Source of the DNA: Dillenia suffruticosa
Taxonomy: Eukaryota > Streptophyta > Magnoliopsida > Dilleniales > Dilleniaceae
DNA length: 64,000 bases
NCBI GenBank assembly: GCA_033439265.1
Contig: JAVTVX010000031.1
Location: 3,085,501-3,149,500 of the forward strand
Direction: 5' to 3'
Shown: positions 20,986 to 55,700 of the stretch, one piece after another
How positions within the stretch are numbered: the first letter of the stretch is position 1
Layout of the letters: every line of letters begins with the position of its first letter
The notes under the pieces: generated by a model
Databases searched by the model: none
Told to the model about the DNA's origin: nothing
What the model saw: the letters and a program-made list of their open reading frames with translations, nothing else
Translations under genes and position numbers: made by a program

Positions 20986-21721
20986 TTTGTGTAACAGCAG
21001 TTCATCTAGTTTAAAACAAATCACTCTTGAGAAAATATGAGAAAAGTTGGAGAAAATCAAGGAGAAAACTTAAAAGACTCAATCTGAGACAAGTCACATT
21101 GGGGTAACATAATGCCATACTTGCCTTGGAATTCAAGAGGATGGCTAATCATATGGAATCTCTCACCAAAAGTAAGATCTCCCGAGACACAAGGTCTACA
21201 AGATCTCTCTGAGGACTAGTCTCTTTCTCTGCCTTCTGAGTGTTTGATGATGTTTTCTTAGATTCTCTCATGGTTATTAGGCTAAAGTTTGTGTATCTTG
21301 CTTGAAGCTTGTAAGCTTGGGGTCTGAACTAGTAATGTAATCTTTATGATCTTCATGAACTTACTTACTTCCTTATTATTGCTTGTGTAGGCATATTTTA
21401 AAATCTCCTCACAATTCTTTGGCACTCAGTCACATTTTCAAAGAGAGTTTTATTACTTAAAAATAGGTCCATGATGTTAATCTTGAGCATTTGTTTTTGC
21501 CATTATAGTTTAATTCGTGTCAACCCCTAATGTAGATGACAAAATGGGGAGAGATAGAGGTTGGTTGAGGTCAATACAAAGAGGAAGAGATAAAAGTTTG
21601 TAAGGCACAAAAGATGAATGAACTTATAGGTGACATTAGTGTTTGAAACACAAAAAGAAGTTCTTAAATCTATGTATTTTTAGACTTTATGAGTTTTATC
21701 ATCATTAAAAAGAGAGATTAT

Positions 21722-31800: not shown

Positions 31801-34280
31801 AAAAATCGTGTGTCAAGCATCTTCAAAAGCACTTTGTAAGGTATTACATCCTTATTTGCTCTTTATGTTGTCTTTATAACAGTAGTTGTATTATTGAGTT
31901 TGAGGCACATGGTTCTTCTTGGTGCTCTTTGTTTTGCCATTTTTTCTATTCACTATCTTTTTTATTGTTTCATACAGTGTCACCATATATTCTCCAATAG
32001 GCTTTACCTTCTTATTCTTTATTTGACTCTACTCCTTCAAACTTGTAACTCATTTAATTTTATATGCACAAGGTTTAAGTTACTCTTGTATTTTTAACTC
32101 TGCTAGATCTGTACGTTCTACTATGAAAATATTCTAGAATTGGACCGGAACAATCATCGAGATATGCCTTTCTTCTGCAGTTCTTGGTGATCATTGTTCA
32201 CAATTGTTTTTTGTAGCGAAGATTAGTTCTGGGACAAGATTAATTGATACATATTAAATTAATAAGTGGTGGTTGTTAACATCTCAAAATTAAATAAATA
32301 TCTAAGTATAGAATTTGTATAGAGAGATGTGTAGAACCTTCCATAACATTCCTAAAGAATTAAAATGTCGGCTGCATGTTTCTCCCTAAACTGATATTTA
32401 CTAATTTTTTCTTGGCTTTGCATCATGTTCACTAAAGAAACCAACACTTTTTTTGGTCTATTATTTTCTTTCCCCTCATAATAGAAGGGACATTACAATA
32501 GGGAGAAAAGAGAAAGAAACCTAACAAAAAGGGCTTTGAGATCTATCCTTTTATAATCTAATTGATAGAAATCATGCTTTAAAAGTTAATTCAAGAAGGA
32601 AGAAAGCAGAATCTAATGAGCCTCTTATTTTGATTTTGTGGGAGGGTGATTCTGGACAGCCTTTGTGGGAGATTGAGTAAATTCCAAGGGATGTCACTGT
32701 TCACGGTTTTTTATTAATTTCCTATTCTTGGTTTTATTTTATTTGGGTGTCTTGTTATTTAAAAAAGTTATTTCTATTTTGATTGTTGTTAGAAGAGTCA
32801 TTACCAAGACTATTTTGGAGTTTCTAAATTTTGTCATAGTGGTAATTTCTATTTTTTGTCAAGTTAATCATTTATTTAAGAATTGTTAACTTTTTGGGAG
32901 ATTGAGTAAATTTTGAAGGATATCAGTGCTCACACATCACTGTTCACATTTCTTTAAAACAAAATTTCGTATCTTTGGTTTTATTTTATTTGGGTGTCTA
33001 GTTATTTAAAAAAATTATTTCGACTATTTTGGAGTTTCTAAATTTTTTTCATAGTGCTACTTTCTATTTTTTATTAAGATTAATCGCTTATTTAAAGACT
33101 CTACCTTTGTTATGACTAATGACTACTACTATTTTGAATTTTGCTTTGAGTTCTCTCAAACCTTTAGAACGTGTGATGCTTTCTTGCTCTACTTATGATG
33201 CCTCAGGATATACTAGTGTGATGCTGGTATCCCTATCTTCTTTGCTCTCTTCAAATTCTTTGTTGCTTTAAGTTTAGCTGCTGAAATATAATTCTTCTCA
33301 AAACCCATAAATGTTCCAGAAATTAACCTGTTAAGACCATCAAACAAATCCTAATTTCCTTGCCCTAAATTCCTCCAATTTCATTCTGCATCACTAATAT
33401 TTGCATAATAAATTTTCGTTTTTTTCCTTGCATCCTTTTTCTGTAAAAGGATTTCCCGTACTTTTTTCTCTTCTCATATTAATGACACCTTTTGCGTTTT
33501 TTGATGAGAAAGTGATAGAGTTATTTTTGATAGGGAAAGGGGAAGCACAAAGGAAGTGCTTATCCAAGAAGCTATATAGACAGAAACCCCAAAATTAACA
33601 TTAACCATAAGGGAAGCAAAAAATTGAGTAAAAGGCCAGAAAACTAGGTTCTGAAGTTCAGTGTCTAGAAGTAATGGTTTATTCATCCCTTCAAAAATCC
33701 CTTTGTATCTTCTTCTCGTGATAAATCAAAGCAACTGATCAAGAATATTGCTCTCCATCAAAACTCAATCTGAGTTTGTCATCATAGATCTGAGCTCGTC
33801 ATCTTGGATTCAAGCATAATGCTCTCAGATCCAAGATCTTCCATGTTTAAAACTCGTGCACCTGTTTGAACTATAGTTAAAATCGGTAATCTGGCTAAAA
33901 TTTTTAAAATTGTTTTAAGTTTTGAGCTCTTCTTTTCCCCATCTTTCTGGCGACGAGAAGGGCTAAAATTCAGTTATCATTGTATGAAGGGCCTGTTTGA
34001 TATTTTTATTTTTTTTCTTTTCTAAATACATTTTCTTTGTCAATTTCAACATTTCGGTTTCTTTGGCTCATGCTTAATCCTTTGCTGGTGGGGTTCTTTC
34101 TCTCAAGGCTGTTGCTTTGAAATACTTTTATGTATTTTTGTTAAACTTAACTGGATAGTGTTCAGGGTGTTGGGGATTGGGAAGCTGTGGCTGTCTGCTT
34201 GGGGTTTTATTTTGATCAAAATAATAGTAATTTCTAGTCTTTTTTGGTGAATTCATGGAAAAAATATCTTTTTTTGTCAG
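28881..34280. other. Presumed DCL1 leader intron, non-coding
   Basis: No protein-coding exon is recognised. It contains a 30-bp tandem duplication (GAGCTCGATGCCCTAGTGCC at 30480 and again at 30510) and a roughly 220-bp tandem duplication at 32668-33110 (listed separately). Short ORFs on both strands lack recognisable domains. Confidence 0.45.
32668..33110. repeat. Tandem duplication, unit about 220 bp
   Basis: Both copies (about 32668-32890 and 32897-33110) carry GGAGATTGAGTAAATT, CACTGTTCAC, TTGGTTTTATTTTATTTGGG, GTTATTTAAAAAA and GACTATTTTGGAGTTTCTAA in order, with moderate divergence. Confidence 0.8.
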
Positions 34281-34406
34281 GTGTACACTCAGTCATGATC
34301 ATCCCCATTAGAGGTTTGGAGAGCTGCTAGCTGTGATATTTCTTCTTTGGTGCAATTAACAACTTTTGCTGCTGATGTATATGACTTGTATCACTACCAA
34401 TATAGA
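34281..34406 (+). promoter_or_regulatory. DCL1 5' untranslated sequence next to the start codon
   Basis: A polypyrimidine tract and acceptor TTTTTTTGTCAG end at 34280. The stretch to the start contains an in-frame ATG at 34347 with no stop before 34407. I chose 34407 because the translation from there (MDGKARVLG...) begins as in other plant DCL1 proteins, shortly before the conserved PSYWLDACE block. Initiation at 34347 would add 20 residues. Confidence 0.55.
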
Positions 34407-37400
34407 ATGGATGGAAAGGCTAGGGTTTTGGGAAGTGCTGGAGATGCTGAACAAATTCATTCACCCGAAGATAGCCGGCCATCTTACTGGTTAGATGCCT
34501 GTGAGGAAATTCCCTGTGATATTGATTTTGTGGACCTAGATCGTCTAGTTCATGAATCAGTTGATGTGACATCCAACCAGGACAATAGTGGCCTAGATCC
34601 TTGTTTCTTTGGGGGAATTGATCATATCTTTGACAGTATCAAGAATGGAAACGGTTTATCTCCTATTGCCCATGGCCCAGATGCATTTGACCATCAGAAT
34701 CTGAACCAGAACTTGGCTAGGGCAGTTTCTTTGGAGTATGATGAGGCAGCAGAGGAGCTTAGCAAGACGTATGGAGTCAATGGTTCCAAAGAAAATTCAA
34801 ACTCCTTTATTTTGCCAACAACAAAGGCCAATGCTTGTGCTGAAAATGAGAATGTTGTTGGAAAGAGACTCCAGGATGACATTTTTTATAGTTCTGATGC
34901 TAGGGACACCTCGGCAGTTGGAAAAACGGAACATTGTTTAGTCAATGATATGAGACAAGATTTCAGGGGTAATGATTGGAGGCACCATGATGTTGATTAT
35001 GGAGAGAGATTCAGGAGGAGGCCTTGCCTCGGTAGTCACAAGGATGAGAGGCTTTTTCCCACTAGAGGAAATTATCAGCACAGAGAGAGATTTAGTAGGA
35101 AGAGGCCACGTGATTGGGAAGATTTTGAGAGGAGAGACTTCAACCGAAGCAGGAGGGAAAATAGAGATCGGGATTGGAGGGGCCGAGAAGCTAAGGGTTA
35201 CTGGGAGAGGGAAAGGCCTGGTTCAAAAGAGCTTGTTTTTCACGTGGGTACATGGGAAGCTGATCAGAGCAAGGATGTAAACTTCACCCCAGAAAAAGCC
35301 CATGAATGTGGTGGAGAAGCTGAGAAGAAAATTGAGGTGCCCAAGGAGAGACTTCCTGAGGAGCAAGCACGGCAGTACCAATTGGATGTTCTTGAACAGG
35401 CGAAAAAGAAAAATACAATAGCCTTTCTCGAAACAGGATCAGGGAAAACTCTTATTGCAGTGCTTCTAATTAAAAGTGTCTGCAATGATTTGCTTATTCA
35501 AAACAAGAAAATGCTTGCTGTCTTTTTGGTTCCTAAAGTTCCTCTGGTTTATCAAGTAATACCATGTCTTACACTACTTATATTCATTAGCTTCAGCTTT
35601 AATTGGCTAGAAGTGTAGTTGATCTTGCGACTTCTATTCCAATTTCAGCAAGCAGAAGTTATCCGTGACCAGACTGGATATCAAGTAGGCCACTATTGTG
35701 GTGAGATGGGTCAGGACTTCTGGGATGCACGAAGGTGGCAGCGTGAATTTGAAACAAAACAGGTAAAAGTAATTCCTTAACGAAACTGATGTTTGTTATA
35801 TGAGAAAAGGTGAAGTAGATCGAATCTTGCTAATGCAGGTTATTTTTGTTGTTATTGCTGCTGCTGCTGTTGTTGTTAACTTGGAAATCCTTCTTTGAGG
35901 AATTTTTCTTTCTTATATGATGATGACCTCTTTAAACACGATGGCCAGTAGCAACCACTAGATATGCATTTGGCTTTCATAGTCCAAGAGAGACTATAAC
36001 CTTATGTGTGTATTGTATTTGCATTTTATTTTATTTTTTGGTGGAAAGATTCTGTTCCTGAGGCACTGTTTCTGAATAGTGAATGCCGTTCTCTGTTTCA
36101 CAGCTTTAAGGTGTTGACTTGTGAGCTATTCCCTTCTGAAAGTAAGCATGTCTGTGTCATCTCCATGTCAACATGCCTTTGGACATGATAGTATTTAACT
36201 TAAAATAGTGTAAACTTTGTATAACTTTGTTGGCTTTATGACATGTTGTCTCACATGCCCCATGTCTTTATCTGTGCTTCATAGCTTGTGAGATATGATA
36301 CTATTGCCAAACATTGATAGCTGCATGTTGCTATGATTGACAGCTTATTGTGTGTTCCAAATTTTCCTAGATTGAGTAAATTTATTTACAGAGTAAAGAA
36401 TACCAAGGTATCACACCTTGTTTTCCTTTGGATTTCTTTTCTTGCCAATTGCCTACTTTTATTGATTTTTCCTCTAGATTGCTCGATACTTCTTCCGTAC
36501 TTTACTGTGATTTTAAAGCTTGCCAATATACGTGCAAATGTGATCCTGAGTGTGAACATGATTACATTGTAGGCTGCCTGGTGAATTGCTTCCTTTTGGA
36601 GGGCAAAGATTATGGACCGTGACTTGTTAATTATGCAATCTTGTCCGCATACTTTGCGGGTTTATTTTTTTAATTCATCCATGTTTTCATTAATTCTAGT
36701 CAGCTTCCAAGTCAACTTTCTGTTTATTGTCTTTCTAGCTGCTTGTTTTCACAGGATATCATATCTTCAAATTATACGATAAAGATTCTGTTTAGGCTTT
36801 CATTATTGTCTTAGCTGCTTTACATTATCTCGAAAGGCTGTTACCTTCTTGCTGCCATATGACTTTCAAATTTAACATTTGGTGCTGACAAATCATTACT
36901 CTGTCATCCTCTTGTCTACCTTTAGTCTCAAACACCTAATTTGCAGTACCTTTTCTTCTGTTTTTTTCTCCTCCACCCCCCCCCCCGCGTGGATATACAA
37001 GCAAACAGGCAAGGCACCTATGGGTGCTAATTAAGGTAAATGCAAGAAGGAACCGCAAACCATGTAAAGATGTGTGAAATATCAACATTTTATGCTATCC
37101 GTGCAATTAGGTTTTGCTTATCTTTAGATAGTCAATTTAGTTGTGATAAACCATATATCTACTTACTACAATCTTCTCAATACAGGTTCTAGTGATGACA
37201 GCTCAAATTCTACTGAATATTCTGAGACACAGTATCATAAAAATGGAAGCAATCAATCTTCTTATCTTGGATGAGTGTCATCATGCTGTGAAGAAACACC
37301 CCTATTCATTGGTGATGTCTGAGTTCTATCATACCACTCCGAAGGAAAAGAGGCCATCGGTCTTTGGAATGACTGCCTCTCCTGTTAACTTAAAGGGTAT

Positions 37401-40400
37401 TTTCCTTATAAATATTAATTTGCAGCTTGTTTCTCTTTTTTCTTGTTACCACTCATGATTATGTAACTTCAGGTGTTTCAAGCCAGGTGGATTGTGCAAT
37501 AAAGATTCACAATCTAGAAAGTAAATTAGATTCCATAGTGTGTACAATAAAAGACCGCAAGGAGCTGGAAAAACATGTGCCAATGCCCTCAGAAGTCGTG
37601 GTCGAATATGACAAAGCAGCAAGCTTGTGGTCTCTTCATGAACAAATAAAACAAATAGAAGTTGCTGTTGAAGAAGCTGCACAATCAAGCTCTAGAAGAA
37701 GTAAATGGCAGTTCATGGGAGCTAGAGATGCTGGGGCTAAGGAAGAGCTGCGGCAAGTTTATGGTGTTTCTGAAAGAACAGAAAGTGATGGAGCGGCTAA
37801 TTTGATTCAGAAATTAAGAGCTATTAACTATGCACTTGGTGAACTGGGGCAGTGGTGTGCTTACAAGGTAACTTAGTGGTGGTTTCTTGTGCTTTGGTCT
37901 GGGTTGACTCTGCAATTTGCCATATATTGTTTACTCAATTCCTTTATTTTGTAGGTGGCACAGTCCTTTTTGACAGCTTTGCAAAATGATGAAAGGGCAA
38001 GTTTCCAGCTTGATGTCAAGTTTCAAGAGTCATACTTGAGTAAAGTTGTCTCTCTTTTACAATGTCAGTTATCTGAGGGTGCTGTCTCTAGCAAGGATAT
38101 AGAAGCAATGAATATGGACTGCCCTTTTATAACTCAAGGGTGTGATGGGGTTGATGACATTGAAGAGGGTGAACTTCCTGATGGTCATGGTGAGATTTGC
38201 TAGTTAGCTTTTATTAGCGACTTTAAGGTCTTCTCTTTAGTAATACTTTTTTTTTATATATATATAAAAGGAAGAACACATTAAATGTATGAGAGAATCT
38301 ATGAAAACCTGAGAATAAGAAATCATAAAACAAATCAGAGCAAAAACACTAATACACAATGGCTTTCTAATTTCTCTTCAAATATTCTAGACTATAATCT
38401 TTATAAATTCCAGAGGAATGAGCATAAAAGGAAGTATTAAAAAAAAAAAAAAACTGTCCTATAAAAGAGAAGGCCCAATAATCTGATTTCGAAAAATTCT
38501 GATGTTCTGCTCTCTCTAAAAACACCATGAGGTGAGCAAAAGTGCACATCTCCATATCAACCGGATATCTTTCTTCCCTCTAAAATCTCTAAATTTTGTG
38601 GGAAAAAAATCAAAAATTCTTGTGGGGCACACCCCGAATATTGTCACATATAGCAAAAATACGGCTTCACGTCTCCCTCATGATAGAGCAATCAAATAAG
38701 TGATTTCTAGGCTCAGGGTTTGTGTGGCATATAACACATGCATCTAAAGAAATAGCTTTTTAAGGTCTCCTCATTTGAAGAAGATCATTGGTATTTAAAT
38801 TTATTGAGCATGATGGACCAAATAAAAGGTTTAACTTTGCTAGGAACCTTCACCGTCTGATTAAACTTGTTTAATTTGAAAAAGGAGGGTTTTGGGAGAA
38901 ACTAGTTAGATGGTGAAAAAAGAGATCGACAAGTAAAAGCCCCTGAAGAATCAAGACTCCTAACCCTAGAGTCAGAAGCATGAGGCGAAGGTTCATTATC
39001 CTAAAGGAGAGAAATCACAGATAAAAACTCAACTAATTCTCTATTGTCAAGATTCCTTCCAAAAGGAAAATCCCAAGAAGGTGAATGATTCTCCAATATA
39101 TAGAAATGGAGCTAAGTGAAGTCCGGATAACCTATAAATGTAAGGGAAAGAACAGGATAAGGGGGAATCCCCTATCCATGGAACCTCCTAAACTAACGCA
39201 AGAGAACTATCACCAACCATGAAGGGACTTAAAGGAAGAAAAATAATATATAAATGAGAAATGAATTTCCAAGGACTGCAATGAGAAACTCTTCAGCATT
39301 GGCACCTCCTTCATTGTGACGGGGACCATACTTGCTCTTTAAATTCTATGCCAAGGAGAATTGAATTCGAAGGAAAATTTCCATATTACTTGAACAAGAA
39401 TGGACAAGGAAAAGGAAAAGGAATCTTTGACTTGAGTTCTACTAGGAATCAGAATCTGTTTGTTGGAAAGTGAAATCTCATCTGGTTCTTAAACTGTTTC
39501 CCCAATTCTGCCGTCTGAACTCAGAGGACCTTCTCTGATTTCGAAAAAGATAGACATCTTGGTTTACTAACACCATGTTACTGCAATTGAGTGCCACTAG
39601 AACTGATATCTTCAGAACTAATGATGTTTCTCCAAATAGTCCTTCCTTTCCCATCCTGCAAAATCATCTTCAGAGCATATTAGGCATACCAGCCTTGCCA
39701 CTTCACATCACCGGGCAATCCTACTTTACCTCCTTCCCACCCACTGGAATAACAGATGAACTCCAAGAGTTGACCTCCATTATTATGACTTTTCTGCACC
39801 CAAAAATGAGGCCATGATCTGTAAAAACCTCCACTATGATCTGATTATTAAGATTGTGAAGTATCTTCTGCAAGAGGCCATATAACCACCTAGTACATTC
39901 CTGGCCCACGGAAATCAGGCAAATACATCTCCCCTTGTTTTCTACTAATTGGCAGAAATTGGAAGTTTCCTTGATGAGGCGAACCTCAAAAACTTTATAT
40001 TCAACTTGAAAATCTATTATGTTCCTCAAAAGACACTTTTGAATAGAATGGTGACCTGAAGCATTTCCAATGCTTAGCAGAAATTCTTGCCAGTTGGTCC
40101 TTGGGGCTATTTTAAATACTTATACTTTTATGTGTTTTAAAGAATTATGGTGGACCTTAATTAGGTCAACTATAGAGGCTTTGTTGCTCAGCCAAGAAGG
40201 GATGGAGCAAAGCTAGGGCAAGGTGTTTACTTAGTTTGTGGGCTGAGCTAATTATTAGTTGTATTTTTGGGAAGGGGTTGGGAGCAGAAGACAGTGATGG
40301 AAGTGCCATTCATGATTGTTGGTAAATTAGAGTTGATGCGTACATTTGGAATTCAGGTGGATTACTTGTGGCCATAGGATTATATTTTTATATTGAACAG

Positions 40401-43400
40401 GTGTCAAGTGCTCTGTTTATGAGGTCGTCTTTTGGAAGTTCAATTCTTTTGGATAGTCTATCATGCTAATGAAGTGCTGACAATGAGATATTGAAGCTGA
40501 ATTGTTCCCAGAACATCTGGACTTCTGTGAAGGAAGAGATTGTTGTAGGAACATAGAATGATTTAGCAAATCTGGTTGTTTCTTGATGGCTTGGAGAACT
40601 TCCATTACAAGGTATATGCACGGTTGAAGAACTTGAATTGAAGAAAAATGAGAAATCTTTGGAAGTGATGGTAGCAATTGTATAATCATGTATTGTTAGG
40701 TTTAGTATCACAAAATGAGATAATCATATGGAGATGGTATATATTTAGGGTCAAGGGCTGGTTTGGGATGGGGTGACCTAATCCCAGCCCTCCCTGGAGC
40801 TCAGGCAAGGATGGTATGAATTAAATGTCTGGATATTTGGCGGTTGGCTTACCAAACCATTTCAATGACTAGGGCTAGCTCATCAAATCTCTCAAATGAA
40901 TGTAAATCAGAGACATTGAACATTGCTGTAAATCTGGCAGTGACTCTACCAAATAAACATTTTGGCTGATTGTCTTCAGTACCTTAGAAGTTCACTCTAC
41001 ATTGACTTAAACTTGTTATTGGTAACTTCAAGGAACCTTTTGTGAACATAGCCTCAAATGCACAATCACCATGTCACTCTTTTGAAGTCTTTTGCCCGTT
41101 GATGTTGATTGGAAATAGCAGCATAAATTTCAGCACTTCTCATGAACTTTCTGAACAGCAAAAGCTTCCCCTTTATGACGGACTCTAGGCTTCTGCAGGA
41201 GTTGGCAGCAGGTCGAACGCATGTTGTGGCTTAAGTCCATTGTCTTATATGTGCTTTTGTTTCATCTGGCAACTTCTTCAGGTGTAACTAAGTTCCAACT
41301 CTTAACATAATTTCCAACCAAGTATCCCATGCTTCAATGAACTTCTTCATACAAGAGCTAGGTTTTACTATCTGCTTATTTTGACAAACCTGCTAGTTCG
41401 ACCACCTGTCCATCCATTAGCAGCACTTCAATCACCTTTAGAGCCTGCTTGATCGCCCTACAAATCACTAGTAGCAGCTGTAATGTCCTTCCTTTCACCT
41501 TGGATATGTCCAGGTCTCTTTGCCCTCCAATGCCATTCCATCTCCTATGTCACTTAACATATTATCGAGCTTCTTCTAGGAAGTCAAGCATATCCCTCTT
41601 TACTAAAATTACTAACAAAATTGATTCTTTTTTAAATATTTTTGGAACATTCTTTCAGATTTCTTGCACGCTTTTATAGTCAGGCCATTCTATATTACAT
41701 GGGTTACACTGCTAGAATGCCTGGCATGTGATAAATTGATTGGATCTGCATTTGTTGAGGAAATTTGGACAATTTGTGATGACAAAAGGCATCTTTCAAT
41801 AAACTCATCCTTTCTGTGATCTTAATTTGAGTGCATGGCATTTGCAATCATGCTTTCTTGAACTGACTGCATGCCTAGTCTGTGTGCATCTCTAATATAT
41901 CCCTATCCTTGGTATGTGGTACACCCTATGCAACTGCAACCTGTGGTTGCGAGTTATAGGATAACAGCTAACAAGATTTCCCTCCAATTTATAATTTGAA
42001 GACTTCTTTGCAGCATATGCCTTTGCTAGTTTTTCTGTGTCATTATCTGCTAATTGTCATTTGTTTTGGGGTTTAAATGAATGTTATAGAAAGAAATTTT
42101 ATATTTATTTTTCTTCTTTTTATGCGGCTTAGTTGCCTCTGGTGGAGAGCATGTGGATGAGATAATAGGTGCCGCTGTAGCTGATGGAAAAGTCACACCC
42201 AAAGTGCAGTCACTAATCAAAATTCTTCTCAAATATCAGCACACTGATGACTTTCGTGCGATTATCTTTGTTGAGCGTGTAGTAGCGGCCTTGGTTCTTC
42301 CTAAGGTTGGAGTTTAATAATGCCAAAATATAGAATTCTCTGTGGTTTTTTATATCTTGTGTTCCCTTCCGATTTCTTGACAACTCTGTTACTGCCACGC
42401 ATCCAGGTTTTTGCCGAACTTCCATCTCTTAGTTTTATCAAATGTGCCAGCTTAATTGGGCATAATAACAGCCAGGAGATGCGTACATGCGTAATGCAGG
42501 ACACAATTGCTAAATTTCGAGATGGTCGTGTATGTATAGTGCACTTATACACTTTATAGAGACAGTTTTTTCCCCTGATTTTCTCCTCATAATTGATTGC
42601 ATTTGATACATAGGTTACACTATTAGTTGCCACAAGTGTTGCCGAGGAAGGCCTTGATATCAGGCAATGCAATGTTGTTATTCGCTTTGACCTTGCGAAA
42701 ACTGTTTTGGCATACATTCAATCTAGAGGCCGTGCAAGAAAGCCAGGTTCAGATTACATCTTGATGGTTGAAAGGTATCTAATTTTGTTCTGGTTCATTA
42801 TTGACATTGAAATTCATCCCAAATAGTCTTGACTTCATATCATCTCTAAAGGGAGAACTCGGCACATGAAGCATTTCTAAGAAATGCTAGGAACAGTGAG
42901 GAGACCCTGCGGAAAGAAGCGATTGCGAGAACTGACCTCAGTCATCTTAAGGGTATTTCAAGGTCCATGACAGCCGATATAATACCTGGTTCAGTGTACC
43001 AGGTAGAGTCAACTGGCGCTATTGTAAGCCTGAACTCAGCTGTTGGACTTGTTCACTTTTACTGTTCACAGCTTCCGAGTGACAGGTACTCTTATGCTTC
43101 TGCATTTTTTTTACAGCCTAATCAGTTTATTTTCCTCTTCTGAAACCCGGTTTCTATCTCCCCCATTTTCTTTTCAGATATTCGATACTTCGCCCAGAGT
43201 TTATTATGGAGCTGCATGAGAGGCCAGGAGGGCCCGTGGAATATTCATGCAAGCTTCAACTTCCCTGTAATGCACCATTTGAAAAACTTGAGGGTCCTTT
43301 ATGCAGTTCAATGCGGCTTGCGCAACAGGTATGCTGCAAAGGACTATAAGACTTATTTGTTTGCTGCATTGTAATATTCTAATACGATCATTATACTTAT

Positions 43401-46400
43401 ACAATGTATGTTCAATTTTTGCAGGCTGTTTGTTTGGCAGCTTGCAAGAAGCTCCATGAGATGGGGGCACTAACGGACATGCTTTTGCCAGACAAGGGAA
43501 GTGGGGAAGATGAAAAGGTCGAACAGACTGATGAAGGAGATCCACTGCCTGGAACAGCTAGACACAGAGAGTTTTATCCAGAAGGTGTTGCCAATATTCT
43601 TCAGGTTAGCTTGTCTTTATCTGCTTTACTTTTTAAGTACCTTTCTGCGATAGAGACATACCTAGATACCAGCATAGAACCAGAAATTCTGGAACTTGAA
43701 ATTTCAGTATTCTAAGGTTGTAGTTTCCCCCCAACTGCCCTAGGTGTCCTGTTCTTTTTCCATGCATCCGATAAATGACATCAAGAGATACAAATATGTC
43801 AAGAGAGGTTGACCTTGAAAGCTGTCTACCAAGTGTCCGAGGGGAAATAGTTGTATCACTGCATCAAAACAAACAAGTGCATGTACTATTTTAATTGCAT
43901 GTGATCAGGGGTATATATTCTGCTGGTATTGCAGTTTGTGAGAGATTACAAGATGATCCCAGTTCACCTGGCTTGCATCATGTATTGGCTTCGATCCTGA
44001 TTTTGACCAGTAAATACATTTAAATTGTTGGAGCATGTATGGGAACGAGTCCTTTTCTTGTTGGGGGTGGAGGCTTTAGGCTAGGGACAAGTGTTTGGAT
44101 GTGTCCATTTTTGTTTTTTCCCTTTTCCCTGAGGGTATTGTTAAAAGAATAATGAAAATTGATAAGCATAGCTTTGTCCAAGTTACTGATATGGTTATTT
44201 TGATGGTCAAATGATTTGTTTTTGTATGTCAATTTCAGAATTTATCTCAGATGAGGACAGGTTTTAAGAATGATTTCTTAACTAGGAAAGCATGCAAAAC
44301 AAACAGTTTCATTGGGCACCCCACAATTATTTGGGAGATGCTTGGTTACCATTTAGCTGCATAATGAGAAGTGCATTCAATGTAGAAAACTTGCAAACAC
44401 ATGATTAGTGAGAATCTTTAATTACAAGAAATACAGTTTCTAAACACTATCAGAGTAGATTTGTGAAGATTGCTATTCCATATTTTCCTGTTCATTTGCA
44501 AGTGATCCAAAAGTTTATCCTTATCTTTGAATGAATATGGAACCAAATACAATCTTTTTTTAGAATTTTTTCCCTTATAGTGCTATCTGGGTTCAAGACA
44601 AACTTACCTGATCTGTCCTACCTTGCAGGGAGATTGGATTTTATCTGGCACAAATTCTTGTAGTAACTCTAAGTTGATTCATCTGTACATGTATGCTGTC
44701 AAATGCATAAATATTGGCTCGTCAAAGGATATCTTTTTAACTCAAGTTTCAGAATTTGCAGTACTTTTTGGCAACAAACTGGATGCAGAGGTATCTTGTT
44801 TACATTTATTACATTTATTCAACTGTTTTGCCTCTTGTTCTAAATATATTGTTTATTATAAGGTATTATCGATGTCGATGGATCTCTTCATCGCTCGAAC
44901 TGTGATAACGAAGGCATCCATTGTCCTACAAGGGTCAATAGATATTACTGAAAGTCAGGTTAGTTCTACGATTGCTGCCTCTGAAAACATCGTTTGTTGC
45001 ACCAACCTCTATGCTCAAGTAAATTTCTAAATTGTGCAGTTGGCCACCCTGAAGAGCTTTCATGTAAGATTGATAAGCATTGTACTGGATGTGGATGTTG
45101 AACCTTCGACCACACCATGGGATCCCGCAAAAGCATATCTCTTTGTCCCCATAGTTGGCAATAACATTGCAGATCCTGTGAAGGACATTGATTGGGACCT
45201 TGTTGAAAAAATTGTCAAGACTTATGCATGGAACAATCCCCTCCAGCGGGCCCGTCCAGATGTTTACCTGGGCACAAATGAACGGAGTTTAGGTGGAGAC
45301 AGAAGGGAGTATGGATATGGGAAACTTCGCCATGGCATGACGTTTGGGCAAAAATCACATCCTACATATGGCATCAGAGGAGCTGTCGCACAGTATGACA
45401 TTGTGAAAGCTTCTGGTTTGGTTCCAAATAGGGATGTCGATGAGATGCAGAGGCATGCAAATCCAACTGAAGGCAAATTAATGATGTTTGATACTATTAG
45501 CACCGCAGAGGATCTTGTTGGGAGGATTGTAACAGCTGCTCACTCTGGGAAAAGGTTTTATGTGGATTCAATATGCTATAACATGACTGCAGAGAGCCCA
45601 TTCCCTAGAAAGGAAGGCTACCTTGGACCTCTAGAATACAGCTCATATGCTGATTATTACTGGCAAAAGTATGCAGTCCTTGTCATTCAAATCATTGATG
45701 CTTTTATTTTATATATAGATATATATATATATATTCTTGTTTGGCAAAGTTATTTGTCTCATTCATCCCTTTTGGAATCTGCTTAGTTCTAATATAAGGC
45801 TGGATGGCCTGGTGGCAACTAAATGTTGTGCCTGAGGAAACTTATCCCATTCTATGCGGAATCAACAACTACTGTCAAGTGCTAAGTGTGGGGCTTCACC
45901 AAATAGCTGCTCATACTTTTACCAGGTGGCAGTGGTTTATGTTTCCGTGTAGATTGGAGATGCTTTGTTTCATCTTGCACAACAGTAGTTGCTTTAGGCT
46001 ACCATTTGCTTCCGATAGGTATGGAGTTAAATTAATCTATAAGCAACAACCTTTGATAAGAGGACGTGGAGTTTCCTATTGCAAGAATCTCTTGTCCCCA
46101 CGATTTGAACATTCAGAAGGTATGGATTTAAGGGAGTTGTCTGGCTACTCCTTTCCTGTTGGCTTGCTTTGTTGTGCAGGCTTTTTTACAATCGAGCATA
46201 AATTTGTACAACAGAGAAAATATGATTTGGACTTCTATTTATGCAGCACAAGACGGTGAATCTGAAGAGACCTTGGACAAGACATACTATGTTTACCTGC
46301 CTCCTGAACTATGTTTTGTACATCCACTTCCTGGATCACTTGTTCGGGGTGCTCAAAGATTGCCATCCATCATGAGGAGAGTGGAAAGCATGCTGCTTGC

Positions 46401-48470
46401 TATTCAGCTGAAGGATATCATTGGTTATCCTGTTCCATCATCAAAGGTATCTTTAATTGTGAGATGAAACATTGGTATTGAGATAATTTACTTAAGAATA
46501 ATTGAATTGATCTTCCATTGTGCTCAGATATTGGAGGCTTTAACTGCTGCATCATGCCAGGAGACATTCTGCTACGAGAGAGCAGAGCTCCTCGGAGATG
46601 CTTACCTGAAGTGGGTTGTTAGTCGATTCCTTTTTCTCAAATATCCCCAAAAACATGAAGGTCAGCTAACAAGGATGAGACAGCAAATGGTGAGTAACAT
46701 GGTTCTTTATCAGTGTGCACTGAATAAAGGACTTCAATCTTACATCCAAGCAGATCGATTTGCTCCATCTCGATGGGCTGCCCCAGGGGTGCTGCCTGTT
46801 TATGATGAGGACATTAAGGATGCTGAATCATCCTTATTTGATCTGGAAGTAGCTACTATTATCACAAGTCAAAACAGTGAGGGATTTGAAGATGAAGAAA
46901 TGGAAGATGGAGAACTTGAGGGCGATTCGAGTTCTTATAGAGTTCTTTCTAGCAAGACACTTGCAGATGTTGTTGAAGCACTAATTGGAGTTTATTATGT
47001 AGAAGGTGGGAAGCATGCTGCAAACCACTTAATGGAATGGCTAGGGATTCAAATAGACTTTGACCCCTCGGTTGTAGGTGGAATCTCTGTGCAACAGAGT
47101 GTTCCAGAGAGTATTCTTAGGAGTGTCAATTTTGATGCTTTGGAGGATGCCTTGAGCATCAAGTTTAAAGATAGAGGCTTGTTGGTAGAAGCTATAACTC
47201 ATGCTTCTAGGCCATCATCTGGAGTCTCCTGCTACCAGAGATTGGAGTTTGTTGGAGATGCAGTCTTGGACCATTTGATTACTAGGCACCTATTCTTTAC
47301 ATACACTGATCTGCCTCCAGGACGGTTGACAGACTTGCGAGCTGCTGCTGTGAACAACGAGAATTTTGCACGGATTGCTGTTAAGCATAAGCTTCATGTG
47401 CATCTTAGGCACGGATCCAGTGCCCTAGAAAAACAGGTTTGTCTTGTTTACTTTAGCTTTACTTTAGACTTGCAGATTCTATGTTCTCTTTTCTGTGGGG
47501 ATGTGAGTTCATGATATTGTTATCATGGTTTTTCCAGATCAGGGACTTTGTTAAGGAAGTTCAGGATGAATCATTAAAACCTGGATTTAATTCCTTCGGT
47601 TTGGGAGATTGCAAAGCTCCGAAGGTTCTTGGAGACATTGTTGAATCTATTGCTGGAGCTATCTTTCTTGATAGTGGACGCGACACAGCTACTGTTTGGA
47701 GGGTTAGAATAAACGCGTGATTGATCTGTTCTAATCTTCATTTTATATGATTTTTTTTTTCTTTCCTCCACCCATAAATATATTTCTGATACACCAAAAC
47801 TCTCTGCTTGCTTTCCTACAATGCTTTCAGGTCTTCCAACCTTTGTTGCACCCGATGGTAACACCAGAGACACTTCCTATGCATCCTGTGCGGGAGTTGC
47901 AAGAAAGATGTCAGCAGCAAGCAGAAGGGTTGGAGTACAAAGCCACTCGAACTGGCAACGTGGCTACTGTTGAGGTGTTTGTTGACGGTGTCCAGATTGG
48001 AATTGCTCAGAATCCTCAGAAGAAGATGGCTCAAAAATTAGCTGCGCGCAATGCACTTATTGTCTTGAAAGAGAAGGAAACAGCCAACGAGAAACAGAAG
48101 AGTGAAGAGAATGGAAAGAAAAAGAAGAAGAATGGCAGCCAAACTTTCACAAGACAGACTTTGAATGACATATGCTTGCGTCGAAATTGGCCCATGCCAT
48201 CCTATAGGTAATATACATAGCACATGAGATCCAAGCATTCATTAATAACAGGTCCATTCGGAGTTGATAGTTTAGTTTTTTGGCATGCATAGGTGTGTGT
48301 GTGAGGGTGGCCCTGCCCATGCAAAAAGGTTTACTTTCGCTGTACGTGTCAATACCAGTGATAGGGGATGGACTGATGAATGTGTTGGAGAACCCATGCC
48401 TAGCGTCAAGAAAGCCAAAGATTCAGCTGCTCAGCTCCTTTTGGAACTTCTGAACAGGTGGTATACATGA
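34407..48470 (+). CDS. DCL1: DICER-LIKE 1, miRNA-processing RNase III (20 exons, 1980 aa)
   Basis: DCL1 is the nuclear Dicer that cuts plant pri- and pre-miRNAs, working with HYL1 and SERRATE. Coding exons: 34407-35555, 35649-35762, 37186-37396, 37473-37867, 37955-38189, 42133-42305, 42407-42529, 42614-42774, 42852-43085, 43178-43328, 43425-43604, 44629-44790, 44863-44958, 45040-45668, 46019-46119, 46247-46446, 46528-47436, 47538-47702, 47831-48207, 48293-48470. All introns are GT-AG and the frame stays open over 5943 nt. Seen in order: Arg-rich N-terminus (about 210-300), Walker A GSGKT (344-348), DECH (450-453), helicase C-terminal QSRGRARK (836-843), Dicer dimerisation domain (about 870-960), PAZ (about 1190-1310), RNase IIIa [12 protein letters not shown] (acidic residues E1458, D1462, D1585, E1588), RNase IIIb [12 protein letters not shown] (E1678, D1682, D1774, E1777), dsRBD1 (about 1814-1877), a KKKKK basic stretch, dsRBD2 (about 1900-1975). 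All catalytic residues are present and length is near Arabidopsis DCL1 (about 1900 aa), so it looks functional. Exon 16 adds a few residues (AQDG) that vary between species. Confidence 0.97.
38245..39480 (-). pseudogene. LINE (L1-type) ORF2 C-terminal remnant
   Basis: Read on the minus strand from 39480 downward the translation shows, in LINE order, a KSKYG segment, [12 protein letters not shown], a VGD...PWIGDSPLS segment, [15 protein letters not shown], then [11 protein letters not shown] (after a one-base shift). The zinc-binding domain C-x2-C-x9-H-x4-C ([17 protein letters not shown]) lies at about 38686-38736. A T-run and TA repeat at 38247-38268 on the + strand would be the poly(A) end. 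Several stops and shifts make it dead. The endonuclease and catalytic RT core were not found. Confidence 0.85.
39720..40030 (-). pseudogene. Possible LINE ORF1-related remnant
   Basis: A 102-codon minus-strand frame contains [20 protein letters not shown] and a following C-T-R-W-L segment. This resembles the protein that precedes ORF2 in some plant LINE lineages. It is on the same strand and on the 5' side of the ORF2 remnant, so both may be one internally deleted element. The family assignment is from memory of the pattern and is weak. Confidence 0.4.
40955..41240 (-). pseudogene. Ty3/Gypsy pol C-terminal remnant
   Basis: On the minus strand the translation gives a [17 protein letters not shown] block (41238 downward), then QHQRAKDFK followed by a frame change into MVIVHLR, then a segment ending VLKTISQN. 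This is the order found at the C-terminal end of plant Gypsy integrases, ahead of the chromodomain (EFxxGDxVMVHLR...GPFxVLxKIxxN). Frame changes and stops make it a relic. Confidence 0.7.
44779..44872 (+). promoter_or_regulatory. miR162 target site split across DCL1 exons 12/13
   Basis: CTGGATGCAGAG forms the last 12 nt of exon 12 (44779-44790) and GTATTATCGA the first 10 nt of exon 13 (44863-44872). Joined by splicing they make the miR162-complementary sequence known from Arabidopsis DCL1, including the same one-nucleotide bulge. The 72-bp intron between them means unspliced RNA lacks the site. In Arabidopsis, cleavage here gives negative feedback on DCL1; conservation implies the same here. 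Confidence 0.9.
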
Positions 48471-49006
48471 TTGTGAAGATGTTTGTGCAACAATTTGACC
48501 CTGCTGTTCACTTGTGGTGTTGTATTCTGATGCTTGGCCTAATTTTAACATTCTCACTCTCTTTTTAAAAAAGGGTTGCGATTTGGGGACGTTTTTATTT
48601 ATCTATTTTTTCTTTGCAGCTTTGTATTCTCTGTTGTTTGCCCAATATTTTCAAGTTGGGTCAGAAATTGTTGTCAGCCTTCTTCGAACTTGCATATGTA
48701 ATATATGTCCAATGTTTAATATTTATAAAAATGAACAACGCTAAAAAGGTCGATATGTACCATTATTTGAGAAGCATGAGCAATATTTTTCTTTAAATGT
48801 ACGATTAATTTTTTTAACTTCTTTATATTATTTGAAAAATATATTATTATCGTATGTACAAAAAATTTAATAGAAATGTGCATTAATGGTATCTATTGTA
48901 CAACGTTAACATGTATTTTTGTTTTAGCATTTTGTAAAATATTTTAATTTATTAGTACAACTGTGTACAATGATTTTAACTACATGTGCAATATTTTAAG
49001 AAACGT
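48471..49006 (+). other. DCL1 3' untranslated region and AT-rich spacer
   Basis: The first 200-300 bp are probably 3' UTR. I see no clear AATAAA before 49000, and plant poly(A) signals are loose, so the transcript end cannot be placed. The rest is AT-rich without features. Confidence 0.45.
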
Positions 49007-49145
49007 TGGAAGGGATTGATCCCATGCATCGTTTTACAATTCTTTCAACCAGGTCCCACTCAATGTCCTTCACAGGATCTGCCATGGGGACAAAGGCTCA
49101 AAATCCATATCCGGTACAATGTTCATCAGTCTCACATGAAAGCTC
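49007..49145 (-). pseudogene. Inverted partial copy of DCL1 exon 14
   Basis: The minus strand is collinear with DCL1 exon 14 (sense 45053-45249, PAZ-proximal coding region). The shared part includes a perfect 23-nt block (+ strand TCAATGTCCTTCACAGGATC then TGC), ACATGAAAGCTCT, GGGGACAAAG and GGTCCCA. Two internal deletions (about 15 bp net and about 46 bp) and scattered substitutions separate it from the gene, so it cannot encode protein. Its right end touches the left terminal repeat of the Mutator-like element. Confidence 0.9.
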
Positions 49146-49291
49146 TATAAATTTTAAATAAGATTATTTAAATATCGTATTTTTTTAATTCCTAAAATGA
49201 TGATTTCGCACTCTAAAAATGTGATATCAGTATTTTTAATGTTAATATTAAAAAAAAAAAAAGCAATTTTGTATTATGAGAGTGCGAAATA

Positions 49292-49612
49292 CCTCTCTCT
49301 GCACATTTTCTGTGCGTGGTGCCTTTGCAGTGCACGAGTATGGCTTGTGCATTGTGCACGGGGTGCCCATGCCATAGCACATATGGCCAATGCAAGTCGC
49401 GAGTGGTGCCTATGCAGTAGGAGTGTATAGCCGGTGCGCTGCGCGCGGGGTGGCCAAGCTACAGCACTTATGGCCTGTGCGAGTCGCGAGCTGTGCCTAT
49501 GCAGTGGTCGTGCATGACTTGTACAAGTCACGAGCTGTGCCTATGCAGTGACCGTACAAGGCGTGGGTACCGCGTCCCATGCCACAACGCGTATGACCTA
49601 TGCGCACCGCCC
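49292..49612. repeat. GC-rich minisatellite inside the Mutator-like element
   Basis: GTGCCTATGCAGT and GTCGCGAG(T/C)(G/T)GTG words recur about every 60-80 bp four times, interleaved with GCCCATGCCA and TATGGCC(A/T)(A/G)TGC. This gives a degenerate GC-rich array just inside the left TIR. The ORFs over it are repeat artefacts. Confidence 0.7.
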
Positions 49613-50161
49613 CCACAGTAGCTTCTACTCACTTTTCATGATATCAAATACACCCACTACAATACTCAAAACATTACCACCGTACTTCATATCGAATACA
49701 AGTAAAATATCTCGAAACAATACTAAATCAATACTGTGAATACCATGATCCATACTCCAGAGTACTAGACAAACACAACCAAACATAACCAAACACAGTT
49801 AATGTCCTAAGGAGATAGTTTAGTGGTATAAACTCTCCTTCCCTAATCTGATGATTTCAAATTCAAATTTTTGTACAAACAAAAAAAAAACAGTTAATAG
49901 AAACGCCACCAACTAATTCAACTATGACCACCATGTAATATAAATCAAAATACTTCACATTCAAAAAAAGTAATAAGAAATTAACATAACTATAAGTATT
50001 TATATACGTTGAAATAACATAAAAAATATACGGCAAAGAATAAGAAAATAACAAATTTTATTTTATAAAAAAATGAAGTTAATGATTACAAAATTTAATT
50101 ATAATACATATGAAATGAGAAATGTAAACTAAATGCCATAAAGAGGTCTTTTAGCATGGTG

Positions 50162-52020
50162 TCACGATTGGCATCTTACAGGAATACGAGCTAGCCTATC
50201 AAGTACAGGTAAAGGTATATCATATAACGGTGTACTCTTATCTATCTTGAGAAATGTAACAGGAGGAACATTAACTGAATGTCGAGCACGACGACATCTT
50301 CGCTCATAAACACTAAGTCGTAGAAGCTCATCGATATCGTTAGTACATATCAGAGTCAGAGTCGGGTAGGAAAATGATGGAACTAACTCCGTCGCTTCAT
50401 CATAATCATCCGCAACACCCAAGGTCGAAGGTATATCCATCCGTTCGGTAGGTCTATGTACAGATGTCGAATGATGGTTTTCATCAAATGGCACATGGCC
50501 GACAAATTGAAGCGCACGCTATGACTCATCTCTAAATTGTCCAAATATCAGATTCACTCCTTTAGCAAATACATCTGACGCTAATAAATGCATGTTTTCC
50601 AGCTTATTGCACTACAAAAGATGAAAGAAAAGAAATATTACATAAACTATAAAACAATATTAAAAGGTAAATATATCTTGGCTTACGAGATACTCCAATT
50701 GTATCGCTATGGGTCGGTATCCGTGCTGATAATAATGGACAGGACACGCGATATATAAACAGGTGATCTGACGATACCACCGCATATAGTTAGATGTTAT
50801 TCTCGGCTCACCGAAAATGTCATCACCCTCTACAATGTGGTTTGTACAGTTATCCCACACTTACAAGGGTATGCCATGTGTCCTCACCCAATCGTGTACA
50901 TGCCTTCTGCGTCGATCAGTCCCGTACAACTCCTGGTCCGTAGATACTGATAAAGGAACACGCTGCAGAAGTCCGAACTGTCTCAAACCTTCTGAGGGTA
51001 ATGATACTCGACAACCTCAAAATAAATCAATGGAGCATCGACCCGCCATATCTCACTGCCGACAAGGCAATAGGCGGGTAACACCATCACGTTAGTTTGC
51101 AAATATGGCAACCAAATGAATTGAAAAAAAACTATCGTGTTAGTAAAATCTATAGAAATAGAAGACGGTGTTAATAAAAGAAAATTATACTCACCCATAT
51201 ATTTCTCATATGATCAAACTGGTTCTTGTACTTTCTAAGAACAAACTGTTCTGTATGTACAGTGATCCTCTAGGGCCTATGAGCAGGTGTGGAACGAGGG
51301 TATCGGATCAATATGGTGACGCCTGATCAGGGTAAAGCTGTGCACTCTCTCCCATGTCCAAAGCTGATAAGAGAAAATATCCTGAATAAATGATCTAATA
51401 TTTATATAAAGTATTGTTAAATAAAAATTCAATAATCAAGTAGAGATAAAATACTTGTATAAGTAAAATCAAACCACAAATCTGTCTAACACCATCCACA
51501 CAAACCCAACACATGGCTCTGCAAAATGTTGCCAAGATAGCACTGTCCCAACTATACTGTTCTATGCACTCTAAATCTCATAGAACCTCCAAATAACAAA
51601 ACTTAACCCTCGATCTTGACTGGTCCCCAAAAAGAGTACCCAGAGCTGCATAATGCGATCGCGTGCGTGCAACTCCACCAATGTCGCATCAGAGTCCGGA
51701 TCCAGAGCAAGCAAGAAAATCTATAATATCCGTATCTTAAGACAGTCTCTAAAAAAATCGTCTGGTGCAGGATAGAAATCCAACAGATCACGATAGACGT
51801 CCTGCCACTCAATAATATAATGAAAGTAATCTACCCTAATAACTGTATCTCCATCTACAGGCAATCTGAACATAACCGAAATGTTCTGTAACGTAATCAT
51901 GTTCTCACCAATGGGTAAGTGAAAAGTATGGGTTTCCTATCTCAATCGCTCAATAAACACGGAAATAAGAGCATAATCATGCTGGATATGACCACACCTA
52001 TACAAACCATAAAACCCAAC
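50162..52020 (-). pseudogene. Plant mobile domain (PMD, MAIN-like) protein, broken
   Basis: Read on the minus strand from 52020 the product follows the PMD family (PF10536; MAIN/MAIL and transposon relatives). The order is RCGHIQHDYALISVFIERLR, then TFHLPIGENMITLQNISVMF with RLPVDGD, then DPDSDATLVELHAR, QYSWDSAILA, LWTWERVH, SEIWRVDAPLIYFEVVEYH and a DNCTNHIVEGD segment. Plausible introns sit at 51364-51454, about 51135-51195 and about 50610-50686. Defects: stop codons at 51937-51939, 50861-50863 and 50519-50521, and a one-base deletion near 50985 (after the VVEYHYPQK segment). PMD proteins are linked to silencing and genome stability when host-encoded. Here the gene lies between long TIRs, so it is transposon cargo. 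A serine/threonine phosphatase domain, fused in some family members, is not seen. Confidence 0.85.
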
Positions 52021-52260
52021 CTACAACAAAACTCTAATTTCAATTTTAAAAGTATAGTTTCAATTTCAAAACTCTAATTTCACTTTTAACACTCTAATTT
52101 CATAACCCTAATTTTAATTTTAAAACTCTAATTTCAATTTTAAAATCCCTAATTTCAAAACACTGATTTCAATTTTAAAATCATAATTTTAATTTTGAAA
52201 CCATAATCCTAATTTCAAAACCCTAATTTCAAAACTCTAACCTTGATTTGAAAATCATAA
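52020..52260. repeat. Degenerate CCCTAATTT-type short repeats
   Basis: AAACTCTAATTTCA / AAACCCTAATTTTA words recur about every 14-20 bp, superficially like decayed plant telomere repeat. They lie just upstream of the PMD pseudogene and may be its promoter or leader. Confidence 0.6.
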
Positions 52261-52562
52261 TTTCATGAGACATGAATGCACACCATATAAATTAAATCAA
52301 ACCCTAAAAATATAAACAACTCAGAAAAGAAAATTCAGAAATCTCCAAACTCTAATTTTACTTGCTTATACATCTTATACTCGGGTAACAAAACCAACAA
52401 ACAAGGCAAAAGGAGAATGATTTACCTTGGACAGATGATCTTCACGCTGTTGGAGAAGGAGAAACTCGCCCTTCATCGCTTGCAGTCTGAGAGTGCAGAG
52501 GGACACTGTAGCATGCAGAGAAGGAGGGGAGACGAGAGAGCAGAGAAATGACTTCGTGTTCT

Positions 52563-52603
52563 GGGATTGGGTAGTTAATCCGTGGGATTGGGTAGTTAAT
52601 CCG
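52563..52603. repeat. 21-bp perfect tandem duplication
   Basis: GGGATTGGGTAGTTAATCCG occurs twice, separated by a single T, next to the right TIR of the Mutator-like element. Confidence 0.9.
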
Positions 52604-52757
52604 ATGCTTTCGCACGCTGTTAGTACAAAATTGTTTTTTAAAAAAATATATATTAATATTAAAATTGTTAATTTTATATTCTCAGAGTACGAAATCAATA
52701 TTTTAAAAATAAAAAAATATATATATGATATTTAAATAATTTTATTTAAAATTTATA

Positions 52758-55700
52758 ATCATTAAGTAAATAATCCGGCCAACGGCATAATTTTGAATTT
52801 ACTTGAGCAAACAAGTTAGCGCAACAAAGGCAGCACTCGTAGGACCCACCTCTTAGTAATATATCTACGGGTAAAACACATGACCCGTCTATGAACCCTA
52901 CACTGAATTTATAATTAAGTCTTTGAAATTTAAAATATCATGATTAGATTCAAATTTTTGAACTGCTACAATTAAAATCCAATTTCACAAATGACGCCAA
53001 CACAGTCGTTGAGTTGGCAAAGTGATTTTCTTAGAGAAACCGGATATGAAATTTACAATAAATTTGAAACCCTAATTTGTTTGAAAATAATAAATTATTT
53101 CTAGTAGAGTTCTTAAATTCAACTTAATTTGAAAAATCTTAATTTGATTTACAACTCAAATTTAATTCAAAATTTTATGTCAATTGGAAATGTTAATATG
53201 ATTTGAAATTCGTCTCCAATTTAATTAAATTAGAAATTTCGAATTAATTTGAAAATCTTAATATGATTTACTTTAAAATCCTTGAGATCCCTGAAATTGA
53301 TGGGTCGAATATCATTTGCCCAAACCCTGAAAGATCTCGAACTGATTGATGCCTTCAACTTGTGTTTTGTCACTGGGGACTTAACCATCAATTCAGCATT
53401 CCACGCTCAGCCACAACAATCTATCCTCCATATAAAATCTTATAACCCATTTTCGAAGAGTTGGACTTGTGAATATATTAGATATCAGCTACCACCATAT
53501 TTAGTTTTAATTAGAATAATACATTTCCACCTTTGTATTGTCTCCGAGTCAAACACGTCCGATCGTCTTGGAATTGAGATCAACAAACTTGCTCAGATCT
53601 CCGGTCATATGACTGATAATACCATTGTTCAAGTATCATGTGTTTGGCTCCAACCTTCTTTCTTCTTTAGAGACGACAACAATCTTAGAAGGTAAAGGAG
53701 ATGTGAAATTCCAAATGATTACCATGTCTACCCTTGGGGAGGAGCATTTGAGGTCTGTTGACCGCGTGACAAGATAAAGCCTTCGGGTCCTAAATCGGTT
53801 TGTTCTGATAAAGGCAACGAAAGAGAGGATGTTCAATCGATGGTTAATAATAGTACAAAGGACAAATGACCCACGGAACTAATGACATATCACTAAACTC
53901 TCTTAACCTACAAATTCAAATCTTAGACTTCTAATCTTAAAAATTTTTTTTTTTAAAAAAAAATAAGGCAACAAAAAATCAACTCCTAAATTAAGACCCA
54001 TAACTACTCGAATAGGATAACCCAACCCCTAAATTGAACCCCCCCCCCCCCCATAACTACTTAAATTGGATTAGACAGATTTTCAAATTATAGTGGTAAA
54101 GTACCACAAAAAAAATTGACCGATCTCAATTGTTTAAGGTTCGGATTATTGTTGTTGTAGTGGTAAAGTACAAAAAATAAAATAAAATAAAAAAATAATA
54201 GTAGAGATTATTTCTCAATGACTAAATGTGTACGAAAAAAGTAACAGAATCGTTTACATTAACAAAAAAAACTAAATTAACAAGAACATTTTAAATGTGT
54301 ACAAGAATTGCCTAAAAATGCAGGAATACATCATCAATTAACAAGGTCAAAAATTAGTAAAATGTAATGAGAGCAGCAATAAACCAACCCTAAACACAAT
54401 TTTCTTACATGTGTAAAATAATCTAAGCCCGCCCCCAAGAGAGATCCAGATCCAGCTCCTTCATTGAAGGGAATACCAAACTCCTGCAATCAACATCCAA
54501 ATACCTTATACAAACACTCAACCAGAGACATTCTAAATGAAATCAGGCTCTTCAATGAGAAGGGGCTTTTCACGGATATACTGAAAACCAATAAAGATTA
54601 CAAGATTATTCAATATCACCATCTCGTGCCACAAATGTCTGAATCATATATACAAACCTAAAAGCTGCAGCAAAATTCACACACCACATGACCCTTCTGA
54701 TCCTGATTATGAAGGTCTAATTTCAGTTCAAAAATACAAAGGGTTCATAGGAACAGTTTCAAGCAAGGGTGGCAAATTCAGATATACTAAATATAGTACA
54801 AAAGTTGTGGATTCAGGTTCAGGTTGATGCAATGTGACCCTAAATTGAATAACTTAGCAATTTGCTCGTATAAACTGGCTAATGGCGATACATGGATGCA
54901 AATATCAGATTTATAACCCCCACCCAAGTAACAATTATAACCAAAATGTTCGAGAGATAACAACCAACAAAGGAATTATTATTTTCCAGTTCCCACAAAT
55001 AAAATAAAATAAATAAACCAACCTAGTTAGCTAATTGCAGTGAATAAAAGTCCAACAAAAGCTAGTTAACTCTTCGTGGCCAATCTCATCAATTCCTACT
55101 AAATGATAATCATCAATTCAAGCTGCTTACATCTGTGACCCATGGAACAGGATGAAATTTGCGTGAACAAAGAAACTGTTGAAGGGTGACATACAAAGAT
55201 AAGAATTAGCCCAACGGTTAACTTTGTTGGGATTTCTTTCCAGAAGAAGTGTATAAATTGGAAGAATAATTTTATGGCTGAAAATTGCTTTGTTTTCTTG
55301 TCATTGCATACAAAAAAATTTTAAGTATATAATTTATAGACTAGATCGGACATTTCAGAGTCAATCGTTACACCTCCGGAAGTTCCATGTACATAAAACA
55401 TTGAAGAGTTATTCTTGGCTAACCCAAAGGTCTAGACTGTCTTCTCAAATTCTTCTGTTGAAAAACAAAAATCATTTTTTTCCTGAAGAACTCAACATCA
55501 TCATTCCCCCTCTAGTTAATCAGACAGCTACTCAAATGCCCATGTTACGGTTCAGGCCTCCAGCGATAAAATCATTTGGTTTGAAGGTAAAATTGTAAAA
55601 AGAACCATGTTTGCTCAGTTCTGTATTTGATCAGACTTCCTTGACAGGCAGAATTGAAAATTGTGTAAAGATTCTTCAAATTTTAAGAATAATCACTGAA

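Follow-up and report, generated by a model that had tools for sequence, protein, structure and literature searches.

An inverted copy of part of DCL1 next to the gene in Dillenia suffruticosa, very probably a decaying local duplicate later split by a transposon

Shortly downstream of DCL1 in Dillenia suffruticosa, a piece of the gene is repeated in opposite orientation and abuts the terminal repeat of a transposon. Two questions arise at this locus: whether the piece was brought there by the transposon or was present before it, and whether it could feed small RNAs back on DCL1 itself. We addressed both by alignment, self-comparison and RNA folding in a window of 64,000 nt, by which we mean the whole stretch of DNA that was analysed.

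The parent gene occupies 34407–48470 on the plus strand, and its reading frame is intact in our model, in which exons 14–20 were placed exactly, exons 1–13 were joined by eye and the start codon is a putative one. Exons 14–17 (45040–45668, 46019–46119, 46247–46446 and 46528–47436) and exons 18–20 (47538–47702, 47831–48207 and 48293–48470) translate to 852 amino acids with a single, terminal stop (TGA, 48468–48470), and translation of 45031–45678 in the frame of exon 14 matched Arabidopsis DCL1 (7eld_A) with an E-value of 2.9e-108. The complete model of 1980 residues was 97% identical over its full length to the equally long protein P0241 of Dillenia turbinata (825 of 852 residues over exons 14–20), and the next best-scoring matches, among the best 120 of 1181, were ~80% identical. 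At 537 strongly agreed columns, defined by ≥ 97% agreement among the other listed DCL1 proteins, the gene in the window departed six times and P0241 seven times; thus, as judged from its sequence, the window DCL1 looks normally constrained. A site that we take to be the miR162-type target spans the exon 12/13 junction (44779–44790 and 44863–44872; CTGGATGCAGAG/GTATTATCGA, read by eye); it is present in the gene and lies outside the inverted copy. Elsewhere in the window, a 1.4-kb direct repeat upstream of DCL1 (11350–12752 and 21719–23120, 81% identity) possibly represents a duplicated piece of a gene or the ends of a transposon, and the ORF at 16752–17219, by its appearance to the eye, presumably resembles a Copia-type integrase region.

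The first half of the copy (half A, 49004–49145, minus strand) begins 534 bp beyond the DCL1 stop codon, counted from its final base. Its minus strand aligned with exon 14 (45054–45248) at 124 of 141 identical bases, with gaps of 37, 15, 1 and 1 nt in the copy and a single gap of 1 nt in the parent, and with 23 nt as the longest perfect run. The local score of 57.0 compares with a maximum of 18.0 in 60 dinucleotide shuffles searched against 34000–48470; in a BLAST self-comparison of the window, half A appeared as two pieces with E-values of 4e-18 and 2e-10. The initial annotation had described a minus-strand match collinear with exon 14, with a 23-nt perfect block and two internal deletions, situated ~0.54 kb past the stop in opposite orientation. 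Alignment and measured distance agree with this description (the deletions being those of 37 and 15 nt), and the similarity to exon 14 is far above chance.

The self-comparison also contained a second inverted match, of 52777–52828 to 44993–45045 (E-value of the core 1e-6). Full alignment of this half B (52777–52862, minus strand) to 44942–45045 gave a score of 40.2, compared with a maximum of 16.0 in 60 shuffles, and showed that it holds the start of exon 14, intron 13 and the end of exon 13; judged by eye, it may extend to ~52867. Halves A and B are collinear and equally inverted, with only 8 bp of DCL1 (45046–45053) absent between them. When the two flanks of the transposon were joined, they formed a single alignment from 44942 to 45248 of the plus strand, which identifies the source as the final 17 bp of exon 13, intron 13 (44959–45039) and the initial 209 bp of exon 14, the exon–intron limits being read off the sequence. 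The feature is an inverted genomic copy of ~0.31 kb of DCL1, intron included, that lies 0.53 kb downstream of the gene and is split by 3.6 kb. Intron 13 is kept at 55 of 65 aligned bases over 44958–45039 (the intron plus one exon base), and its retention rules out a processed pseudogene.

No extension of the copy was found to the left of 49004, at 48656–48745 or immediately after 52868, where 869, 953 and 561 of 1000 shuffles, respectively, were as good; two control pieces from within the copy were each matched by 0 of 1000 shuffles. Longer searches for an extension likewise stayed at shuffle level. At its far end, the copy is followed by a possible MITE-like element (52869–53321, with the ends GGGTAAA.../...TTTGCCC), whose end match is weak (score 8.3, compared with ≤ 8.0 in 500 shuffles). 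Beyond this element, within 53320–53400, a match of 11 in 12 nt, equalled by 32 of 1000 shuffles, is at most suggestive of a continuation.

What separates the two halves is a TIR transposon of 3.6 kb (49146–52757) with a Mutator-like layout. Its TIRs, at 49146–49289 (144 bp) and 52608–52757 (150 bp), are 76% identical and enclose a Plant Mobile Domain (PMD) gene on the minus strand (50983–51936), which is broken or intron-split into pieces at 51721–51936, 51395–51577 and 50983–51213. The first of these matched PF10536 above the curated cut-off (E-value 5.5e-9) and the other two matched it below (0.003 and 1.8e-5), all three collinear in profile order, and a fourth, marginal piece was seen at 50861–51016 (E-value 0.043). 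We take the PMD gene to be linked to the Mutator superfamily. A MULE transposase family was not detected in the 16 ORFs scanned (14 inside the element) of the 48 listed; non-autonomous elements can do without a transposase. Membership of the Mutator superfamily is putative; it is founded on layout and the PMD gene, and neither a defining transposase nor a target duplication was found. Both subterminal parts of the element (49316–49505 and 52027–52265) contain short repeats in direct orientation, at spacings of 87 and 129 bp. Candidate relatives of the TIRs at the start of the window were discarded, as they consisted of AT-rich alignments only (scores 25.0–37.7).

The junctions of the element bear on the order of events. 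The initial annotation had the fragment ending exactly where the TIR begins. This is correct for half A, next to which the TIR starts at 49146, but not for the copy as a whole, which resumes beyond the transposon at 52777–52862. Neither half is enclosed by the TIRs, and in DCL1 the two matching segments adjoin each other with a gap of only 8 bp, which argues that the transposon entered a pre-existing copy; because it interrupts the copy, the insertion is the younger of the two events. The insertion is not a textbook one. By-eye comparison of the TIR flanks revealed no direct repeat that could be a target-site duplication, which in Mutator-like elements measures 8–11 bp. At the right junction, the TIR is separated from half B by 19 bp (52758–52776) that replace the 8 bp of DCL1 sequence; a small deletion that followed insertion, at the left end, might account for this 19-bp/8-bp mismatch.

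The initial annotation had suggested an origin through transposon activity, by gene-fragment capture or breakpoint repair. A MULE would then either have taken up the DCL1 piece, as Pack-MULEs do, or have made it by repair on its arrival. The map of the locus already contradicts this: pieces captured by Pack-MULEs sit between the TIRs, and here both halves lie outside them and continue each other. Although half A does abut a TIR, and MULEs are described as capturing sequences as Pack-MULEs (PMC8277862), we regard such an origin as very unlikely. We also rejected a capturing element that uses both flanks of the copy as its ends, since inverted similarity between the flanks was at shuffle level (19 of 100 shuffles as good). 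Direct similarity between flanking sequences, AT-rich in nature, was observed for 48811–48976 and 53110–53269 (score 23.7; 0 of 100 shuffles as good); this may reflect related transposon remnants or composition.

On this evidence, the copy is very probably a duplicate that arose locally, in inverted orientation, from part of DCL1, has been decaying and was later split by a transposon. Copying would have occurred at the DNA level, because intron 13 is present, either with the nearby gene serving as template in the repair of a break or through a template switch during replication. The PMD-carrying TIR transposon would then have inserted into the copy. After that, the copy would have drifted as a pseudogene fragment, and DCL1 itself would have changed at two residues of the corresponding segment. 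Such a copy is most likely without a role, and would give at most stray small RNAs from occasional read-through or antisense transcription.

The differences between the copy and its source fit this course of decay. The exon part differs at 17 of 141 sites (11 nonsynonymous and 6 synonymous, each difference being classed singly) and the intron part at 10 of 65 sites over 44958–45039, in addition to indels. An assembly artefact, in which the copy would owe its place to a false join, would be expected to leave nearly identical sequences, and we consider this explanation to have next to no likelihood. Identity did not differ significantly between the exon part (124/141) and the intron part (55/65; Fisher p = 0.51). 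At six of the nonsynonymous sites, the copy leaves a residue that is near-invariant in the 120 listed full-length DCL1 proteins (S13, L16, V18 and V20, each 120/120; D51, 118/120; L68, 119/120), and three others fall on the variable residues 43, 57 and 65.

The remaining two point the other way. Residue 12 (45075) is Met in the copy and in 120 of 120 DCL1 proteins, and Ile in the window gene. Residue 62 (45223), whose assignment hinges on the placement of 1-nt gaps nearby, is Asp in the copy and in 94 of 120 DCL1 proteins, and Tyr in the window gene, a residue shared by 1 of 120. Among 120 exon-sized homologues, Met was found at residue 12 in 113 of 117 and Asp at residue 62 in 91 of 118, and P0241 also has Met12 and Asp62. 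Since Met12 and Asp62 are kept in the copy and changed in the gene, the copy is older than those changes of the gene. A P0241-like donor is not indicated: at residue 50 the copy agrees with the window gene and with 99 of 120 DCL1 proteins in having Ile, where P0241 has Val, and at residue 55 it agrees with the gene and with 108 of 120 in having Val, where P0241 has Ala. We infer that the copy holds an older DCL1 sequence and that it has drifted without visible coding constraint, in the manner of a pseudogene.

Would such a copy nevertheless act on DCL1? It had been argued at the outset that a DCL1 RNA reading through into the copy would hold sense and antisense arms of its own sequence, and folding bears this out. 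When a spliced read-through RNA running from exon 14 to 49145 was modelled, its minimum-energy fold paired 130 of the 142 copy bases with the exon, compared with 0 in three controls in which the copy was shuffled. The isolated duplex of exon 14 and copy, which includes the 23-nt perfect run, had an energy of -189.6 kcal/mol. Because the arms pair in the modelled fold, the proposed geometry is sound in physical terms. Transcripts extending past ~49146 might accordingly fold exon 14 onto the copy, and dicing would destroy the transcript and release siRNAs, a cis feedback beside miR162. The copy lies only 0.53 kb past the stop, and AATAAA is absent between stop and copy, although in plants its presence or absence is not a reliable marker. 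On the other hand, the arms are separated by 3755 nt of genomic DNA (45248 to 49004), two deletions have removed 52 nt of the exon arm, the exon half is not significantly better kept than the intron half and a 3.6-kb transposon follows immediately after half A; moreover, an Rfam search of the window yielded no match that reached the gathering thresholds. Taken together, self-silencing of this kind is very improbable. The wider scheme that could be built on the self-complementarity of read-through RNA, in which the efficiency of termination would set how much DCL1 RNA is diced, as a lineage-specific cis feedback on top of miR162 and a hairpin in intron 14, has in our view only a slim chance of being right.

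An independent plus-strand transcript over 49004–49145 could in principle act in trans, as an antisense RNA or a source of siRNAs against DCL1 mRNA. The one point in its favour is orientation, the plus strand being antisense to exon 14. A transcript leaving the left TIR outwards would, however, be of the minus strand, i.e. sense to exon 14, and we hold this proposal to be highly doubtful. Antisense transcripts have been reported at Arabidopsis DCL1, where they do not come from such a copy (PMC2664332). As far as sequence allows a judgement, the inverted copy is most likely an inert relic and no switch; a regulatory role would be possible but quite unlikely, and feedback on DCL1 through the copy is not the reading that we would favour.

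A better candidate for feedback on DCL1 is a predicted 217-nt hairpin in intron 14 (45669–46018), apart from the copy. It spans 45796–46012 on the plus strand with 83 pairs and -96.9 kcal/mol; the stretch 45790–46015 has the same energy and a z-score of -7.95. When 250 segments of 220 nt were folded across 33900–48900 (mean z near 0, standard deviation 1.1), the extreme was z = -7.2 at 45780; the overlapping segment at 45840 had -3.8, and the next elsewhere -3.0. The trait of the MIR838 type, a long hairpin within DCL1 intron 14, is therefore present in the window. Similarity of the hairpin to ath-miR838 was marginal, with a score of 10 that was reached in 56 of 2000 shuffles, and an Rfam search of 45640–46040 alone returned no related family and one weak unrelated match (E-value 4.3). 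In Arabidopsis, MIR838 sits in DCL1 intron 14 (PMC2664332, PMC4429486). A similar intron-14 hairpin has been reported from Medicago, where it includes a stretch resembling miR838 and is matched by three small RNAs, the miR838 homologue not being one of these (PMC4833791), and a Brachypodium paper considers miR838 seemingly Arabidopsis-specific (PMC4053937). A survey of introns of 56 miRNA-biogenesis genes in grape appears, from its account, to find no prediction that matches its new miRNAs (PMC2717091), which would speak against MIR838-like introns being widespread. A structure of this sort in intron 14 may nevertheless be commoner among plants than these accounts state. It may also matter more than the copy and, if functional, would add a third, distant lineage to Arabidopsis and Medicago.

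The inverted copy itself provides a case history in which an apparent transposon-captured gene piece is, on our reading, an older inverted duplicate, split by a transposon and keeping a residue that the gene has lost. Were it transcribed, it would offer a natural test of small-RNA feedback from an inverted piece near its gene. In the titles and abstract openings of the publications among the matches listed, no inverted DCL1 copy beside DCL1 was described.

Several known systems resemble the locus in part. Local inverted duplicates of gene fragments are reported to seed young MIRNA or siRNA loci (Allen et al., 2004, as cited in PMC1790633). These share with the DCL1 copy that an inverted partial copy of a protein gene is complementary to its parent and carries drift mutations. 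In contrast, they form a self-folding transcript at a locus of their own, whereas here the working gene is one arm, 3755 nt away, and a transposon divides the copy. A young MIRNA arisen by inverted duplication was rejected for the same distance between the arms, as such genes are compact foldbacks within a single transcript. Hairpins within DCL1 introns are documented for MIR838 (Arabidopsis intron 14) and miR1047 (Physcomitrella intron 7) (PMC4429486, PMC2664332, PMC4053937). They parallel the feedback first proposed for the copy in that a hairpin would act on DCL1, but they are intronic, whereas the inverted copy lies at a distance downstream of the gene. With Pack-MULEs, the locus has in common a Mutator-like layout beside a piece of a host gene; it differs in that the DCL1 piece lies outside the TIRs and is interrupted by the element. 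Finally, nothing that we found separates the copy from the non-processed pseudogene fragments and filler DNA known from break repair in plants: like these, it is short, local and drifting, and it has retained its intron.
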